A DNA stretch of 7,560 nucleotides, taken from Acidobacteriota bacterium. GTDB taxonomy: Bacteria > Acidobacteriota > Terriglobia > UBA7540. Where the stretch lies: assembly GCA_003165615.1 (NCBI GenBank), contig PLWR01000478.1, positions 427 to 7,986 of the forward strand. The letters run 5' to 3'. A program made the position numbers and the translations under genes. Shown in pieces: positions 2,263-7,298 of the stretch (position 1 is its first letter; each line of letters starts with the position of its first letter). The notes below the pieces were generated by a model. That model was not told the DNA's origin and made no database searches. It saw only the letters and a list, made by a program, of their open reading frames with translations.

Positions 2263-4017
2263 ATGACCCAGCAAAAGCTTCCCCAGCTCCGGCGGCTATC
2301 GCAGATCGTGTTTCTGCTGCTCTTTCTCTTCCTGATGATGAAGACGGAGAGCTTCAGTTCGCTGCGCGCCGTGCGTGACGGAACGCGCCTTCCCTACCCC
2401 GTCAGTTTCTTCCTCCAGCTTGACCCCCTAACGGCACTCAGCAGCGCCCTGGCCAACCACACCCTTTATCGCGGCCTGCTCTGGAGCCTGGTGATTCTGC
2501 TTCCCACTTTCTTTCTGGGCCGATTCTTCTGCGGATGGATTTGCCCGCTGGGAACGCTGAACCATTTCGTGAGTAGTTGGAAATCGGAGCGCAAGCGCGG
2601 CCCCGAGCGCCTGGAGCGCAACCGCTACAAGAAATGGCAGACCCTGAAGTACTACCTGCTGATTGCCGGCTTGGTCTCAGCGCTTTTCGGCGGGTCGCTG
2701 ATTGGGATCCTGGACCCCATTTCGCTGACCGTGCGCTCACTGGGAACGTCGGTGTTCCCGGCGATCAACTATGCGCTGGACGCCATGCTGGGCGCGCTGC
2801 ACCGTTCGCCGATTGCGCCCGTGCGCAGCGTCGGCTACGTTGCCCAACTCGTCCTGAATGAAACCCTGCTCACCTTCCGGCAGCCGCACTATCGCCAGGC
2901 GTTTTTCCTGGGCGCGATTTTCATCGCCATCCTCGTGCTCAACCTGCGTATCACGCGCTTCTGGTGCCGGGCGGTGTGCCCCCTGGGCGCGCTGCTGGGG
3001 ATCGTTTCGCGCTGGTCGATTCTGGGCCTGGAGAAGGACCCCGATCACTGCAACGATTGCAATCGCTGCCTGCTGGACTGCCAGGGCGGCGACGATCCGC
3101 TGCCCAAAGCGAAGTGGCGCAAAGCGGAATGCCACCTGTGCTTCAACTGCGTGGGCGAATGTCCTGTAGCGCCGGGCTTCAGCCCGGCATCGGCGCGTGC
3201 CGCCCCTTCGCTGCGCTCAGGGCAGGCTCTAAAGGGCGGCGATCCATCCAGCGCGGAAAGCGGAATCCGCTTCAAATTCTTCCCTGCAACGCCCACAACC
3301 ATCGACACCCCCAGCTTGCAGCGCCGTCGCGCGCTGGCGGGAGTGGCGGCGGGGGCAGCGCTGTTGCCGGTTCTGCGCACGGGCCCGGGATTCGCGGCGG
3401 CAAGGGATCCGCGTCTCATTCGGCCGCCCGGGGCGCTGGATGAGAAGAACTTTCTCGAACGTTGTATTCGCTGCGGCGAGTGCATCAAGGTGTGCCCCAA
3501 CAATGCCTTGCAGCCGGCGTTGCTGGAAGCGGGGCTGGAGGGTCTGTGGACGCCCGTGCTGGCGCCCCGCATCGGGTATTGCGAGCCCAGTTGCGTACTC
3601 TGTGGCGAGGTGTGCCCCACGGGCGCGATTTGGGAAATCACTCAAGCGGAGAAAGCCTGGTTGCCCGCCAGCGCCGCCAAGAACGCCAAACCCATCCGTC
3701 TGGGCACGGCTTTCTACGACCGCGGGCGCTGCCTGCCCTGGGCGATGGCGACGGAGTGCATCGTGTGCGAGGAGTGGTGCCCCACGTCTCCCAAGGCTAT
3801 TTACCTGCGCCCCGTCGAGGTAACCGATGCCCTGGGGAACGTGAAACAAATTCGCCAGCCTTACGTGGACCCCAACCGCTGCGTGGGCTGCGGCGCCTGC
3901 GAATCCGCCTGCCCGGTCAAAGATCAGCCCGCCGTCTACGTCACCAGCATGGGCGAGAGCCGCTCCAAGACCAACCAGATTCTGTTGAGCCGCCAAACCG
4001 AAGGAGCCCCCAAGTGA
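2263..4017 (+). CDS. Membrane polyferredoxin, NapH/NosR-like half fused to NapG-like half
   Basis: This 584-aa protein is predicted to move electrons across or along the inner membrane through about six [4Fe-4S] clusters. The N-terminal half has about four membrane segments (roughly 13-26, 70-89, 129-150, 213-229) and the NapH/NosR-type CxxxCP pairs C90/C94 and C235/C239. Two ferredoxin motifs follow (C263-C273 and C290-C300, each C-x2-C-x2-C-x3-C). A repeat-derived insert occupies about 303-333. Then RRR (354-356) leads into a hydrophobic stretch (357-371) like a Tat signal or a further membrane crossing. The NapG-like half has C401-C411, C440/444/447/451 (C-x3-C-x2-C-x3-CP), C490 with C499/502/506, and C540-C550. 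In Nap systems NapG is exported and receives quinol electrons through NapH; the same is inferred here. The start is ATG 2263 with AGGA at 2251-2254. The stop overlaps the next gene. Confidence 0.85.
   Translation: MTQQKLPQLRRLSQIVFLLLFLFLMMKTESFSSLRAVRDGTRLPYPVSFFLQLDPLTALSSALANHTLYRGLLWSLVILLPTFFLGRFFCGWICPLGTLNHFVSSWKSERKRGPERLERNRYKKWQTLKYYLLIAGLVSALFGGSLIGILDPISLTVRSLGTSVFPAINYALDAMLGALHRSPIAPVRSVGYVAQLVLNETLLTFRQPHYRQAFFLGAIFIAILVLNLRITRFWCRAVCPLGALLGIVSRWSILGLEKDPDHCNDCNRCLLDCQGGDDPLPKAKWRKAECHLCFNCVGECPVAPGFSPASARAAPSLRSGQALKGGDPSSAESGIRFKFFPATPTTIDTPSLQRRRALAGVAAGAALLPVLRTGPGFAAARDPRLIRPPGALDEKNFLERCIRCGECIKVCPNNALQPALLEAGLEGLWTPVLAPRIGYCEPSCVLCGEVCPTGAIWEITQAEKAWLPASAAKNAKPIRLGTAFYDRGRCLPWAMATECIVCEEWCPTSPKAIYLRPVEVTDALGNVKQIRQPYVDPNRCVGCGACESACPVKDQPAVYVTSMGESRSKTNQILLSRQTEGAPK
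3169..3261. repeat. Interspersed palindromic repeat inserted in frame in the polyferredoxin gene
   Basis: About 93 bases, read as residues 303-333 of the polyferredoxin (APGFSPASARAAP, SLRSGQALKGG), separate the second ferredoxin motif from GIRFKFF, which in NapH-like proteins normally follows CPV almost directly. The DNA holds two hairpins: GCCGGGCT/AGCCCGGC (3171-3188, perfect 8 bp) and GCCGCCCCTT/AAAGGGCGGC (3199-3208 with 3231-3240, 9 of 10 pairs). Read on the other strand it gives ACPERSEG, a string I recall from dispersed repeats in many environmental genomes. The insert keeps the frame and has no stop. The exact edges are uncertain by a few codons. Confidence 0.75.
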
Positions 4018-4523
4018 AAATCTTTGCCCTCTCCATGATCCTTGCCCTTACCGGTATCCTGGCAGCATGCCGGTCCAAAGGGCCTTCGGCCACCCCCGAC
4101 TTCTTTCCCGCCAGCGACGCGGTACCGGGCTGGGTGAAATCCAGCGCGACGCGCACCTTTGAAGCCAGCCGTTTGTACGAATACATCGACGGCGACGCGG
4201 ACAAGTACGTGCAAGCGGGCGTGGTGAAGACGCTCACCAGCGATTACAAGTTCAACGGCAAAACCGACGTTGCCCTTGACGTCTACGTGATGGGGAATGC
4301 CGCGGGGGCGCAAAAAGTCTACAATGCCGAATCGGCGGAAGGAAGCCAGCCCATCACCATGGGTGACGCCGGCCGGTATGCCAAGGGTAGCTTGACGTTT
4401 CGCCAGGGACCGTACTTTGTCCGGATCGTGGCGTACGAAGATTCACCGGATGTGGCCAAGGGCCTGACCGAACTGGCGCATGCGGTCAGCACTCGTCTGA
4501 GCCCGGCGGGCACGGGAGCTTAA
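4014..4523 (+). CDS. DUF6599-like lipoprotein, first copy
   Basis: This 169-aa lipoprotein is read from GTG 4014. The signal peptide MKIFALSMILALTGILAAC ends in a clean lipobox (LAAC, Cys19), so the mature protein is anchored outside the cytoplasmic membrane. The mature part contains DFFPASDAVPGW, YIDGDADKYVQAGVVK, DVYVMGNAAGA and YAKGSLTFRQGPYF. These resemble DUF6599 family proteins (PGW...YIDGxAD...), whose function is unknown; the family name is from memory. There are no cysteines after Cys19 and no haem motif, so it probably does not carry electrons itself. GTG is chosen because AAGGAG at 4001-4006 is 7 nt upstream, it overlaps the polyferredoxin stop as GTGA, and it gives a complete signal peptide. 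The frame is also open far upstream, but that part runs antiparallel in meaning to the polyferredoxin and is not coding. It is closely paralogous to 5966-6595. Confidence 0.88.
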   Translation: MKIFALSMILALTGILAACRSKGPSATPDFFPASDAVPGWVKSSATRTFEASRLYEYIDGDADKYVQAGVVKTLTSDYKFNGKTDVALDVYVMGNAAGAQKVYNAESAEGSQPITMGDAGRYAKGSLTFRQGPYFVRIVAYEDSPDVAKGLTELAHAVSTRLSPAGTGA

Positions 4524-4541
4524 TTTCCAAGAGGAGGCTTT

Positions 4542-5765
4542 ATGGACAGCAAAAATCGCATTGGACGTCGGGAGTTCATCGCTACCTCCGCTGGAGCACT
4601 CGCAGCGGGACTGGGCAGTGCCTGCGGGCGCGTGCCCAGGAGCGAGATTGAAGAGGCCGCTGCCAAAGTGGGCCGCCTTCCCCAACGCGTATTGGACCGC
4701 TCCGGCCGCAAGGTCAGTGTGCTGATCGGCGCGGTGGACGACTGGGCTCCGGAAGTCGTGGAGGCCGCCATCTTGTGCGGGGTCAATTACTGGCACAAAA
4801 GCAATAAGTGGGACCGCGGCTCAGTTCCTCAGGCGATCCGGGAGAATCGCGAAGCCCATTACTGCGAGGTGTGCGTCGACCGCGTGCACGGCAATCACGA
4901 AACCGGAGTCATTGACGAGGAAGCCCACTACCAGTACGTCAAGCAAGCCATCGAGCGCTCCGGCCTGCCCTACTACGACGACATGCTATGTCCGCACTTC
5001 GGCTATCACAACACCGCAGAGCTAAAGGACAACCGGGGGGCCATTCGCGCTTACGAGCGCTTGAAGAAGGAAGGCTTGGTGCGTCACCTGTGCATCTCAC
5101 AGCACAACTACAAAGGCAATGCCCGGGTGCCCGGGGGAGAGGATGCGACTGAGATCCTTCCCGCCGTCGTCGAAGAGGGCTTGTACGAGCACGCCCAGTT
5201 TTTCTTCTCCTTCGGCGACGGGGAAGAGATCAACAAGTTCGTCAGCTTCGCCAAGAGCAAAGGGTTTGGGACCACCGCCATGAAGACCACCCGCGGCGCC
5301 GCGCGCATGCAAGCCGACCCCGAATTCATGAAGCAATTCCCGGCAGGTACTACGCCGCATCATGCCCTGGCGCGCTGGCTGACCACCGCCACCGACCTCA
5401 GCAATGCCGTGATTCGGATCCACAGCCTCGATGAGTTCGTTGACACATACTCGGGCGCCGGTAAGCCGCTGCGAGCCGCTGAGGCTCGCGCCATCGAGAT
5501 GATGACGGTTTACGCGAATCGTGAGGTCTGCCGCCTGTGCAACGATTGCATGAGCCATTGCGCCGAGGGCGTCGCCATCGCCGATATCCTGCGCTATGAG
5601 CGCTACGCCACCGATTACGGCGACCGTGAGCGCGCGCAGCGGCTTTATGCCCAACTCGACAAGCGCGGCGACGCCTGTCAGGTGTGCGGTTCCTGCCTGC
5701 CGCATTGCCCGCAGGGACTCAATATTCCTGTCAAGCTCGCCGACGCGCATCGCCTGCTCAGTTAA
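4542..5765 (+). CDS. Tat-exported aldo/keto reductase-like iron-sulfur protein
   Basis: This 407-aa protein begins with a twin-arginine signal (R9-R10 in GRREFIATSAG, then an Ala/Gly-rich stretch ending near SACG, Cys28), so export in folded form is predicted. Residues about 45-300 follow the aldo/keto reductase TIM barrel, including GVNYW (80-84), CPHFGYHN (H152), the GLVRHLCIS strand (178-186) and AMKTTRG (246-252). The usual catalytic Asp and Tyr positions appear to be His85 and Trp90, and the Lys is not obvious. The C-terminus has two C-x2-C-x2-C-x3-C motifs, C330/333/336/340 and C379/382/385/389, suited to two [4Fe-4S] clusters. It is inferred to exchange electrons with the membrane polyferredoxin encoded two genes upstream; the substrate is unknown. 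The start is ATG 4542, with AGGAGG at 4532-4537, 18 bp after the lipoprotein stop. Cys28 could be lipidated, but the lipobox is poor. Confidence 0.85.
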   Translation: MDSKNRIGRREFIATSAGALAAGLGSACGRVPRSEIEEAAAKVGRLPQRVLDRSGRKVSVLIGAVDDWAPEVVEAAILCGVNYWHKSNKWDRGSVPQAIRENREAHYCEVCVDRVHGNHETGVIDEEAHYQYVKQAIERSGLPYYDDMLCPHFGYHNTAELKDNRGAIRAYERLKKEGLVRHLCISQHNYKGNARVPGGEDATEILPAVVEEGLYEHAQFFFSFGDGEEINKFVSFAKSKGFGTTAMKTTRGAARMQADPEFMKQFPAGTTPHHALARWLTTATDLSNAVIRIHSLDEFVDTYSGAGKPLRAAEARAIEMMTVYANREVCRLCNDCMSHCAEGVAIADILRYERYATDYGDRERAQRLYAQLDKRGDACQVCGSCLPHCPQGLNIPVKLADAHRLLS

Positions 5766-5774
5766 TCCCCGGCG

Positions 5775-5795
5775 TCGATTCTGGATTGGCGATTC
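5775..5795. repeat. Short copy of the 7-bp repeat
   Basis: Three consecutive 7-base units, TCGATTC, TGGATTG and GCGATTC, lie 10 bp after the reductase stop. GATTCTGGATTGGCGATT (5777-5794) matches 16 of 18 bases of 89-106 in the array at the left end of the window, so the two places share one repeat family. There is no coding content. Confidence 0.5.
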
Positions 5796-5823
5796 ATGAT
5801 GAGTGCGCCGGGCAAGATCTAAG

Positions 5824-5855
5824 ACCCGCCCGAAGCGGGTGGCCCCCTGGGCGGG
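5824..5855. repeat. GC-rich inverted repeat after the reductase gene
   Basis: ACCCGC (5824-5829) pairs with GCGGGT (5835-5840). Alternatively CCCGCCC (5825-5831) pairs with GGGCGGG (5849-5855), so two hairpins compete. There is no U tract. It may slow or stop transcription between the reductase and the second lipoprotein gene. The surrounding span 5766-5965 has no gene and no convincing promoter. Confidence 0.45.
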
Positions 5856-5965
5856 ACCGGGTGAGGGGTTACTTGCACACCGGAGGCGGTGGTAACAAAT
5901 CCGGGTTAGAAGCTTTGAAATGATCGCTGGAACAGCAAGGCATTTCACGCCATGGAGCAAAGTCG

Positions 5966-6595
5966 ATGAAGGCGCAAAGAAAGGTACGGAGTTCTTCCTT
6001 GCGGGTCTTTACGCCTTGGCGTCTCCGATTTCTGGAGTCCGATGGACTCCATCGGAGTCCTGTAATCGGACTTGGCGCGAGATTGTTGTATCTTTCACCG
6101 CCCCTCACTTTGATCCTCGCACTCGCCGGCCTGTTGGCAAGTTGCCGTTCCCAGGCGCCTTTCGCTTCCGAGGACTTCTTTCCGGGCAGCGACTCGGTGC
6201 CGGGTTGGATGAAAGAAAGCGCGACGGGTACGTATGACGCCGGCACTTTATGGAAATACATCGACGGCGACGCGGATAAGTATGTGCAAGCGGGCGTGGT
6301 GAAGATGCTCACCAGCACCTACCGGTTCAGCCTCGTTAGCGATGCCTCCATCGATGTGTACGTGATGGGTAACGCTGCCGGCGCACGGAAAATCTACGAT
6401 TCCGAATCGGCACAAGGAAGCCAGCCGCTCCCAATCGGGGATGCGGGGCGGTACGCCAAAGGACTCTTGACGTTTCGCCAAGGACCGTATTTTGTCCACC
6501 TCGTCGCCTATGAGGATTCGCCGGAAATGGCGAAGGCCCTAACCGCCTTGGCCCGCGCCGTCAGTGGCAAGTTGAGTACAACTCCCCGCCAATGA
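5966..6595 (+). CDS. DUF6599-like lipoprotein, second copy (start uncertain)
   Basis: The mature region is a paralogue of the lipoprotein at 4014-4523. Hand alignment from the lipid-anchor Cys is ungapped over about 150 residues and roughly two-thirds identical, with DGDADKYVQAGVVK, DVYVMGNAAGA and TFRQGPYFV almost unchanged. From ATG 5966 (GGAG at 5954-5957) the protein has 209 residues and the lipobox LLASC ends at Cys60, an unusually long signal region whose first about 35 residues are translated repeat DNA. TTG 6083 or 6086 would instead give a normal short signal (LYLSPPLTLILALAGLLASC), but without a clear ribosome site. Either way an exported lipoprotein of unknown function is predicted. 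It lies 200 bp after the reductase gene, so it may be read through from the cassette or have its own start. It is convergent with the - strand gene, 28 bp away. Confidence 0.8.
   Translation: MKAQRKVRSSSLRVFTPWRLRFLESDGLHRSPVIGLGARLLYLSPPLTLILALAGLLASCRSQAPFASEDFFPGSDSVPGWMKESATGTYDAGTLWKYIDGDADKYVQAGVVKMLTSTYRFSLVSDASIDVYVMGNAAGARKIYDSESAQGSQPLPIGDAGRYAKGLLTFRQGPYFVHLVAYEDSPEMAKALTALARAVSGKLSTTPRQ
5969..6017. repeat. Imperfect inverted repeat at the start of the second lipoprotein gene
   Basis: AAGGCGCAAAGA (5969-5980) and TCTTTACGCCTT (6006-6017) are inverted repeats with one mismatch and a 25-nt centre. The sequence resembles the AAGGCGCAAAGA/TCTTTGCGCCTT dispersed repeats seen between genes of many environmental bacteria (from memory). 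It overlaps the first codons of the long reading from ATG 5966. Confidence 0.55.
6024..6070. repeat. Strong 47-nt hairpin
   Basis: TCCGATT (6024-6030) pairs with AATCGGA (6064-6070). After a 3x3 internal loop, the 12-base arms 6034-6045 and 6049-6060 pair with one G-G mismatch around the 3-nt loop ACT. It ends 12 nt before the alternative TTG start of the lipoprotein gene, so it may be either a dispersed repeat or a leader structure. Confidence 0.6.
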
Positions 6596-6623
6596 TCGGT
6601 GCCATGCAATCTGGTTCAGGTTT

Positions 6624-7274
6624 CTATCTTCCGACGGAGGGGATCACCAAGGTGACGTCGCGGTCCAGGCGCATACCCACCAGCGAGCCCGCCGCGAGCG
6701 TAGCCTGTTTTCCCTTGGGGAGGAAGAGCGCGGTCATAATGCCCGCGGCTCCCAGGGCGATGGCGGTTCCCACGCCACCCGCGACTCCAATGGCGGCGGG
6801 AGCCACGACGAGCAGCGCCTGCTGTTTGCGATTGGGGCCCTTACCTTTCAGTTCCCCTTCCGGCCCGACGTTAGGGTCGCTGCCGCTTTCGCTGGAGAAC
6901 ACTTCGGTCAAGGAACCCAGGATCGCCACCTTTTGGCCGTTGGGAAGTTCCACGGTGTCAAAAACAATGGTGAGATAACCACCCTTGCCCTTGCGCGCCG
7001 CGGCCCGTGACTCTCCCACGTGGCCATCAATGCGCACGCCCTTGGAGAGCACGTCGCGGTCTTCCACGGCCACCGGGTCAATCAGCGTACACATGATCCG
7101 GTCGCCCCCCTTGGAGGTGCTGGAATTAATCGTGGTGTGCAACTGGAGCTTGAATTCCGTACCTTCGGGAACCGTGATCTCGTCGACGGCGGGATTATCC
7201 TGCGCAAAGAGGGGCGCCATCGTGCTGCCGATAAGAGAGCAGGAGATCAGTAATGCAAAGATTTTTGCCTTCAT
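6624..7274 (-). CDS. Secreted protein of unknown function with Gly/Ala-rich C-terminal region
   Basis: This 216-aa protein starts at ATG 7274 on the - strand. Residues 1-25 (MKAKIFALLISCSLIG, ending LFAQ) are a signal peptide with a likely type I cut after Ala24 or Gln25. The mature region starts with PEGTEFKLQLHTTINSSTSK and GDRIMCTLIDPV, then HVGESRAAARKGKGG and LTIVFDTVELPNGQKV. Residues about 153-186 are a hydrophobic Gly/Ala stretch, and the end reads ATLAAGSLVGMRLDRDVTLV. This 'tunable beta-domain plus glycine-rich segment plus LPAGT-like strand' layout resembles secreted hypothetical proteins of Acidobacteriota with TrbI/VirB10-like beta structure; that is from memory. Function is unknown. 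A TTG at 7289 could add five residues, but the ATG gives the more typical signal. LISC at residues 9-12 mimics a lipobox but falls too early. It is convergent with the second lipoprotein and has its own promoter region at 7335-7364. Confidence 0.8.
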   Translation of the reverse strand: MKAKIFALLISCSLIGSTMAPLFAQDNPAVDEITVPEGTEFKLQLHTTINSSTSKGGDRIMCTLIDPVAVEDRDVLSKGVRIDGHVGESRAAARKGKGGYLTIVFDTVELPNGQKVAILGSLTEVFSSESGSDPNVGPEGELKGKGPNRKQQALLVVAPAAIGVAGGVGTAIALGAAGIMTALFLPKGKQATLAAGSLVGMRLDRDVTLVIPSVGR

Positions 7275-7298
7275 TCCTATTTCCCCCAAGCGTTGAGC

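Follow-up and report, generated by a model that had tools for sequence, protein, structure and literature searches.

A recurring, putatively exported redox module of Acidobacteriota that combines a NapH-NapG-like fusion, DUF6599 lipoproteins and a divergent aldo/keto reductase-fold protein

We analysed a 7,560-nucleotide stretch of an Acidobacteriota bacterium (contig PLWR01000478.1, positions 427 to 7,986; hereafter the window), which contains genes for a NapH-NapG-like fusion protein, two DUF6599 lipoproteins and a protein with an aldo/keto reductase (AKR) fold and a twin-arginine translocation (Tat) signal. An earlier note on this DNA had proposed these four consecutive plus-strand genes as a redox cassette, and the open reading frames (ORFs) match the positions it gave. 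Gene calls are open frames, some of which begin upstream of the true start. The features, with the evidence for each, are as follows.

2263..4017, + strand: NapH-NapG-like fusion (ORF, Pfam, NCBIfam, motif positions)
3166..3255, + strand: in-frame insert inside the fusion gene, between the NapH and NapG halves (alignment to eight homologues)
4014..4523, + strand: DUF6599 lipoprotein a (Pfam, lipobox Cys19, model)
4542..5765, + strand: Tat-signal AKR-fold protein with two CX2CX2CX3C motifs (motifs, alignment, model)
5966..6595, + strand: DUF6599 lipoprotein b (Pfam, lipobox Cys60 in the called frame)

Direct reading of the sequence bore out the tight packing proposed for the first three genes: the fusion and DUF6599 a genes share GTGA in a 4-base overlap (4014-4017), and an 18-bp spacer (4524-4541) lies between the DUF6599 a and AKR-fold genes, with AAGAGGAGG seen by eye upstream of the AKR-fold gene start at 4542. 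The DUF6599 b gene is set 200 bp downstream of the packed genes and need not belong to the same transcript. Between 1900 and 6700, promoter-like sites numbered 0 (0.9 in shuffles) and terminator-like sites 4 (4.6 in shuffles), no more than shuffled sequence gives and so uninformative, and an Rfam scan gave zero matches. Each of the four products bears a lipobox, a twin-arginine motif or membrane segments and is thus predicted to be membrane-bound or exported, as previously suggested.

The fusion matched Fer4_5 (Pfam, 1.9e-19) plus further Fer4 models, and its top NCBIfam matches were NapG (100 bits against a cut-off of 269) and NapH (83 bits against 213, and 77 bits against 234). Because these scores fall below the curated cut-offs we term the protein NapG/NapH-like, and the earlier assignment of a NapH/NapG-type conduit holds with that qualification. 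The NapH-type half has hydrophobic segments at residues 6-24, 68-86, 132-150, 213-231 and 238-256, together with two CX3CP and two four-cysteine motifs, and the NapG-type half carries four four-cysteine groups; the cysteine motifs (at 90, 235, 263, 290, 401, 440-451, 490-506 and 540) are alignable in eight homologues. An internal twin-arginine pair, conserved in 9/9 aligned rows, is followed by an Ala/Leu-rich stretch that is below the hydropathy threshold used. The insert (90 bp, 30 residues) is missing in the eight homologues, and a 22-mer of it had no exact match among the 90 loci searched; it opens with a short GC-rich palindrome with 7-base arms, noted by eye.

In its membrane half, its four-cysteine groups and its internal twin-arginine segment, the fusion resembles the NapG/NapH quinol dehydrogenase of periplasmic nitrate reductase systems and MauM/MauN, and by analogy it may share their presumed role of moving electrons between quinol and the outside. 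Unlike these systems, the window protein is one fused chain that scores far below the curated cut-offs, and the families matched in the window include no NapA-, NosZ- or methylamine-dehydrogenase-type enzyme, consistent with the earlier remark that a terminal reductase is lacking. NapH/NapG-type proteins are known as quinol-oxidising, and the known systems suggest that the fusion would carry electrons between menaquinol and the outside.

Within the window, the natural receiver for these electrons would be the putatively exported AKR-fold protein with its two cluster motifs. Its description as a Tat-signal Fe-S aldo/keto reductase stands in part: the N-terminal twin-arginine motif (R9 R10 x F12) is invariant across 74 aligned rows and the protein is a predicted Tat substrate, with no stretch above the hydropathy threshold after the motif, while CX2CX2CX3C occurs twice (330-340 and 379-389) and the eight cysteines of the protein are all invariant in the same rows. 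AlphaFold2, run with the 74-row alignment, predicts an AKR (beta/alpha)8 barrel with a mean predicted local distance difference test score of 90.5, and the fold-search matches listed for this model are AKR-fold structures, a close one being SmbA, a non-enzymatic AKR-fold receptor. What does not stand is ordinary membership of the aldo/keto reductases (PF00248), as the Pfam search gave no PF00248 match at E<=0.1, with all Fer4 matches below cut-off. Precomputed PF00248 assignments were present in 4 of the 120 homologues listed for it; five canonical AKRs from other loci match the family at 2e-27 to 5e-39, and a sequence search of the PDB with the window protein found nothing below E 0.028.

The differences from canonical AKRs extend to the active site, where the Asp of the Asp-Tyr-Lys-His tetrad is replaced by His85 (74/74 rows) and the Tyr by Trp90 (73/74), no Lys is aligned at the Lys position, and only the tetrad His is kept, as His152 (73/74). 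The IPG-type stretch of canonical AKR rows is also replaced. With the tetrad lost, the protein, as an enzyme, would most likely need no free NADPH. Across the 74 rows, seven barrel residues are invariant whose side chains would suit catalysis or ligand binding. The N[YF]WH motif was part of one of two peptide patterns behind the genome scan described below, so its presence in the 30 loci recovered is partly due to selection; 60 protein rows and the window are independent of it. We take the Fe-S bearing members of the AKR group to be COG1453.

Both lipoproteins proposed by the earlier note exceed the gathering score of DUF6599 (PF20244; 27 bits), with 72.9 bits for a and 64.2 bits for b (E 3.3e-20 and 1.6e-17; Pfam). 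Each has a lipobox after a hydrophobic stretch, LAAC at Cys19 in a and LASC at Cys60 in the called frame of b, and the lipobox cysteine is the sole cysteine of each protein. The predicted fold of DUF6599 a is PknH-sensor/PsbP/Mog1-like, and in a PDB sequence search the best E for DUF6599 was no lower than 0.27. An inverted repeat (6024-6070) sits within the beginning of the called frame of b, leaving its true start uncertain. The two had been described as paralogues, which fits their shared family, but a recent tandem duplication was considered and rejected: b groups with the protein P0225 (97/98; bootstrap unsettled) and not with a. Since it falls in another branch, b is not a recent copy and appears to be an older paralogue of a.

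Recurrence was assessed in relatives by scanning GTDB genomes with the AKR alignment, which gave 30 loci (L001-L030) with a window-type AKR. The fusion, DUF6599 and AKR genes are consecutive in L002, L003, L006, L007 and L018, and L016 has the order AKR, DUF362, fusion, DUF6599 on a single strand. DUF6599 adjoins the AKR in L017 and in L001, where the contig begins just upstream. The sole partner in L004 is a DUF362 gene 8.5 kb off, L005 (1-2114) has a contig edge at the window-type AKR with a DUF362 frame directly after it, and the L030 locus is fragmentary and lies at a contig edge. All four families occur together with a window-type AKR in L007 (DUF362, fusion, DUF6599, AKR) and L016, and with a canonical AKR in L044, L045 and L046. 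The fusion is split over two overlapping frames in L044 and L048. Ten proteins neighbouring the AKR were tested, of which eight match ordinary families (ATP-binding cassette transporter, short-chain dehydrogenase/reductase, peptidase, transglutaminase, NadA, pseudouridine synthase, beta-propeller/phosphoesterase and IstB) and two match none. Pyruvate:ferredoxin oxidoreductase and dihydroorotate-dehydrogenase-like genes were observed upstream of the fusion in L003, L018 and L049 (~200 bp in L018, 3.7 kb in L003). L003 also has, 1.1 kb downstream of the intact gene, a piece (12350-12478) 88% identical to residues 365-407 of the window AKR, which appears to be the remnant of an old duplication.

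Gene counts were then taken from 250 genomes of the class of genome G001 (thresholds: AKR E<=1e-60, fusion E<=1e-40, DUF6599 E<=1e-8); not every candidate in a genome is scored by the searches, so all counts are lower bounds. The window-type AKR was present in at least 7 genomes, every one a search seed, the fusion in at least 22 and DUF6599 in at least 38. All 7 AKR genomes contain the fusion (Fisher 1.5e-8, kinship ignored). DUF6599 was on the same contig as the fusion in 14 of the 15 non-seed fusion genomes, the exception being G023, whose fusion lies on a 5-kb contig (L048) with one end cut and 3 kb without DUF6599 on the other side, and whose second contig (L052) carries an AKR-DUF6599-DUF362 set. 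Among 24 fetched fusion loci, DUF6599 was within 2 kb of the fusion in 22, with both misses (L048 and L049) touching a contig edge. DUF362 was within 3 kb in 16. Of AKRs within 2 kb, one of the window type was seen in 6 loci and a canonical one in 4, L016 having both.

The same association appeared from the side of DUF6599. Of 52 DUF6599 places listed, the 28 lying outside L001-L018 and the previously fetched loci (L051-L078) were taken regardless of neighbours, and in 25 of these a same-strand AKR is no more than 1 kb away, compared with ~1% per place under a crude model of ten such genes per 4 Mb; 19 have a DUF362 gene within 3 kb. The three places without a near AKR are L061 (a weaker AKR 4.6 kb off), L067, where DUF6599 lies at a contig end, and L068, where none appears in 12.5 kb. 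Of the 25 neighbouring AKRs, 22 combine a twin-arginine motif with two Fe-S motifs; those of L051, L054 and L058 do not show both. Two further fusion-free DUF6599 places differ, with an adjoining AKR in L050 and no partner in 16 kb in L047. The AKR excess beside DUF6599 is plain, though relatedness makes any formal value meaningless, and the grouping is not due to chance. These results show that the fusion, DUF6599, DUF362 and Fe-S AKR are four families that recur together, with the fusion and DUF6599 as the stable core.

The commonest further partner in relatives, and the putatively exported partner near the fusion in most other fusion loci, is a Tat-signal DUF362 protein, which the window lacks. 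The composition first proposed for the cassette therefore recurs as a grouping but omits this partner, and only its fusion and DUF6599 belong to the stable core. DUF362 proteins encoded near fusions carry an N-terminal twin-arginine motif (R14 and R15 in the first alignment row, invariant in 14 rows), and a PDB sequence search with DUF362 gave no match better than E 0.07. Directly upstream of fusion-DUF6599-DUF362-DUF362 sets lie PP-loop, Ni_insertion and AIRC-type genes (L035 4664-7690, L042 2160-5296), presumably LarE-, LarC- and LarB-type, and in L036 (11384-13660) LarE- and LarC-type genes; the Lar-type genes were grouped by clusters, with Pfam run on one member per cluster. In L035 (12209-14155), L041 (3396-5345) and L042 (9733-11625) the DUF362 genes are followed by a gene for a GH127-like glycosidase, of which the L041 member was analysed with Pfam and for a Tat signal. 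PMC11770544 assigns DUF362 to the same Pfam clan as DUF2088, the LarA family. An hhalign comparison of DUF362 (13 rows) with LarA (12 rows), both shallow profiles, did not recover this relationship (probability 0.9%). The nickel-pincer cofactor was rejected as a common thread, with no co-occurrence signal: LarC is in 219/250 and LarA in 150/250 genomes, so common in the class that their presence is uninformative. As the window has no DUF362, the link to LarA nickel-pincer racemases concerns relatives only.

Other features flank the cassette. A calcineurin-like phosphoesterase (323-1189) is separated by a 43-nt inverted repeat (1197-1288; 86% complementary, 6 nt between arms) from a Phd/YefM-type antitoxin and PIN-domain toxin pair (1372-2018) immediately upstream of the cassette. 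L003 also has, upstream of its cassette (5860-6723), a phosphoesterase that is likewise 288 aa long. On the minus strand, 6624-7289 encodes an exported-looking 221-aa protein with no Pfam or NCBIfam match.

From these data we infer where the proteins lie, what their clusters contain, the path and direction of the electrons and the role of DUF6599. The NapH-like half in the membrane would oxidise menaquinol, and electrons would pass along the Fe-S clusters of the fusion to the NapG-like half at the outer face, then to two [4Fe-4S] clusters at the C-terminus of the Tat-exported AKR-fold enzyme, whose remodelled His/Arg/Lys site at the barrel mouth may serve to reduce a small substrate of carbonyl or sugar-like type. 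Having a predicted sensor/PsbP-like fold and no redox motif, the DUF6599 lipoproteins could tether the exported partner to the membrane or act in substrate binding. In relatives, the AKR is accompanied or replaced by a Tat-signal DUF362 protein. We hold this reading tentatively, at a probability of roughly 0.45. A more specific proposal is rather doubtful: an NAD(P)H-independent AKR type, in which an exported barrel has Asp/Tyr/Lys replaced by a His-rich, possibly metal-binding site and is wired by two [4Fe-4S] clusters and the NapH-NapG fusion to the quinone pool, and in fuller modules works beside a Tat-exported DUF362 cousin of nickel-pincer racemases.

Several counts weigh against electron delivery to the AKR. 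An Fe-S AKR lies within 2 kb of the fusion in only 3 of the 15 non-seed fusion genomes, so that the check across genomes suggested by the earlier note supports recurrence beyond chance but not a constant AKR partner; G009 carries its AKR and fusion set on separate contigs; and 19 of the 30 window-type AKR loci (L008-L015, L019-L029), titled Aminicenantes, Deltaproteobacteria, Bacteroidales, Verrucomicrobia or similar, show none of the partner genes, although some of their contigs span only 4-6 kb.

Electrons could also flow in reverse, with the exported AKR-fold enzyme oxidising a sugar, polyol or hydroxy acid and the fusion feeding the quinone pool, but the quinol-oxidising character of NapH/NapG-type proteins and the altered tetrad make this somewhat improbable. 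The replaced tetrad, the close fold match to SmbA and the greater frequency of DUF362 as a fusion partner would also suit an AKR-fold protein that is an electron carrier, sensor or scaffold, with DUF362 or a protein encoded elsewhere as the catalyst; against this stand the seven invariant barrel residues, and we consider it unlikely. Mere synteny, in which the genes travel together in related genomes without joint function, would fit the partnerless loci and the drawing of the fusion counts from a single class, but is very improbable given that the families persist through changes of arrangement and membership (AKR at either end, DUF362 present or absent, AKR of either type) and that AKRs so exceed the crude expectation beside DUF6599.

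The recurring exported redox module is thus real, a NapGH-type conduit with new partners, which in the window lacks DUF362 and has a divergent AKR. No published account of such a cassette was found in open-access full text searched with narrow terms, in keeping with the earlier statement that no named pathway has this composition. Menaquinol electrons passing through the fusion to the exported AKR-like protein may give Acidobacteriota a means of reducing a substrate outside the membrane, with an electron conduit of recognisable type at its core. DUF6599 and DUF362, two families of unknown function, gain a shared, testable context, and the AKR-fold protein points to an AKR lineage that seems to have abandoned NADPH chemistry.

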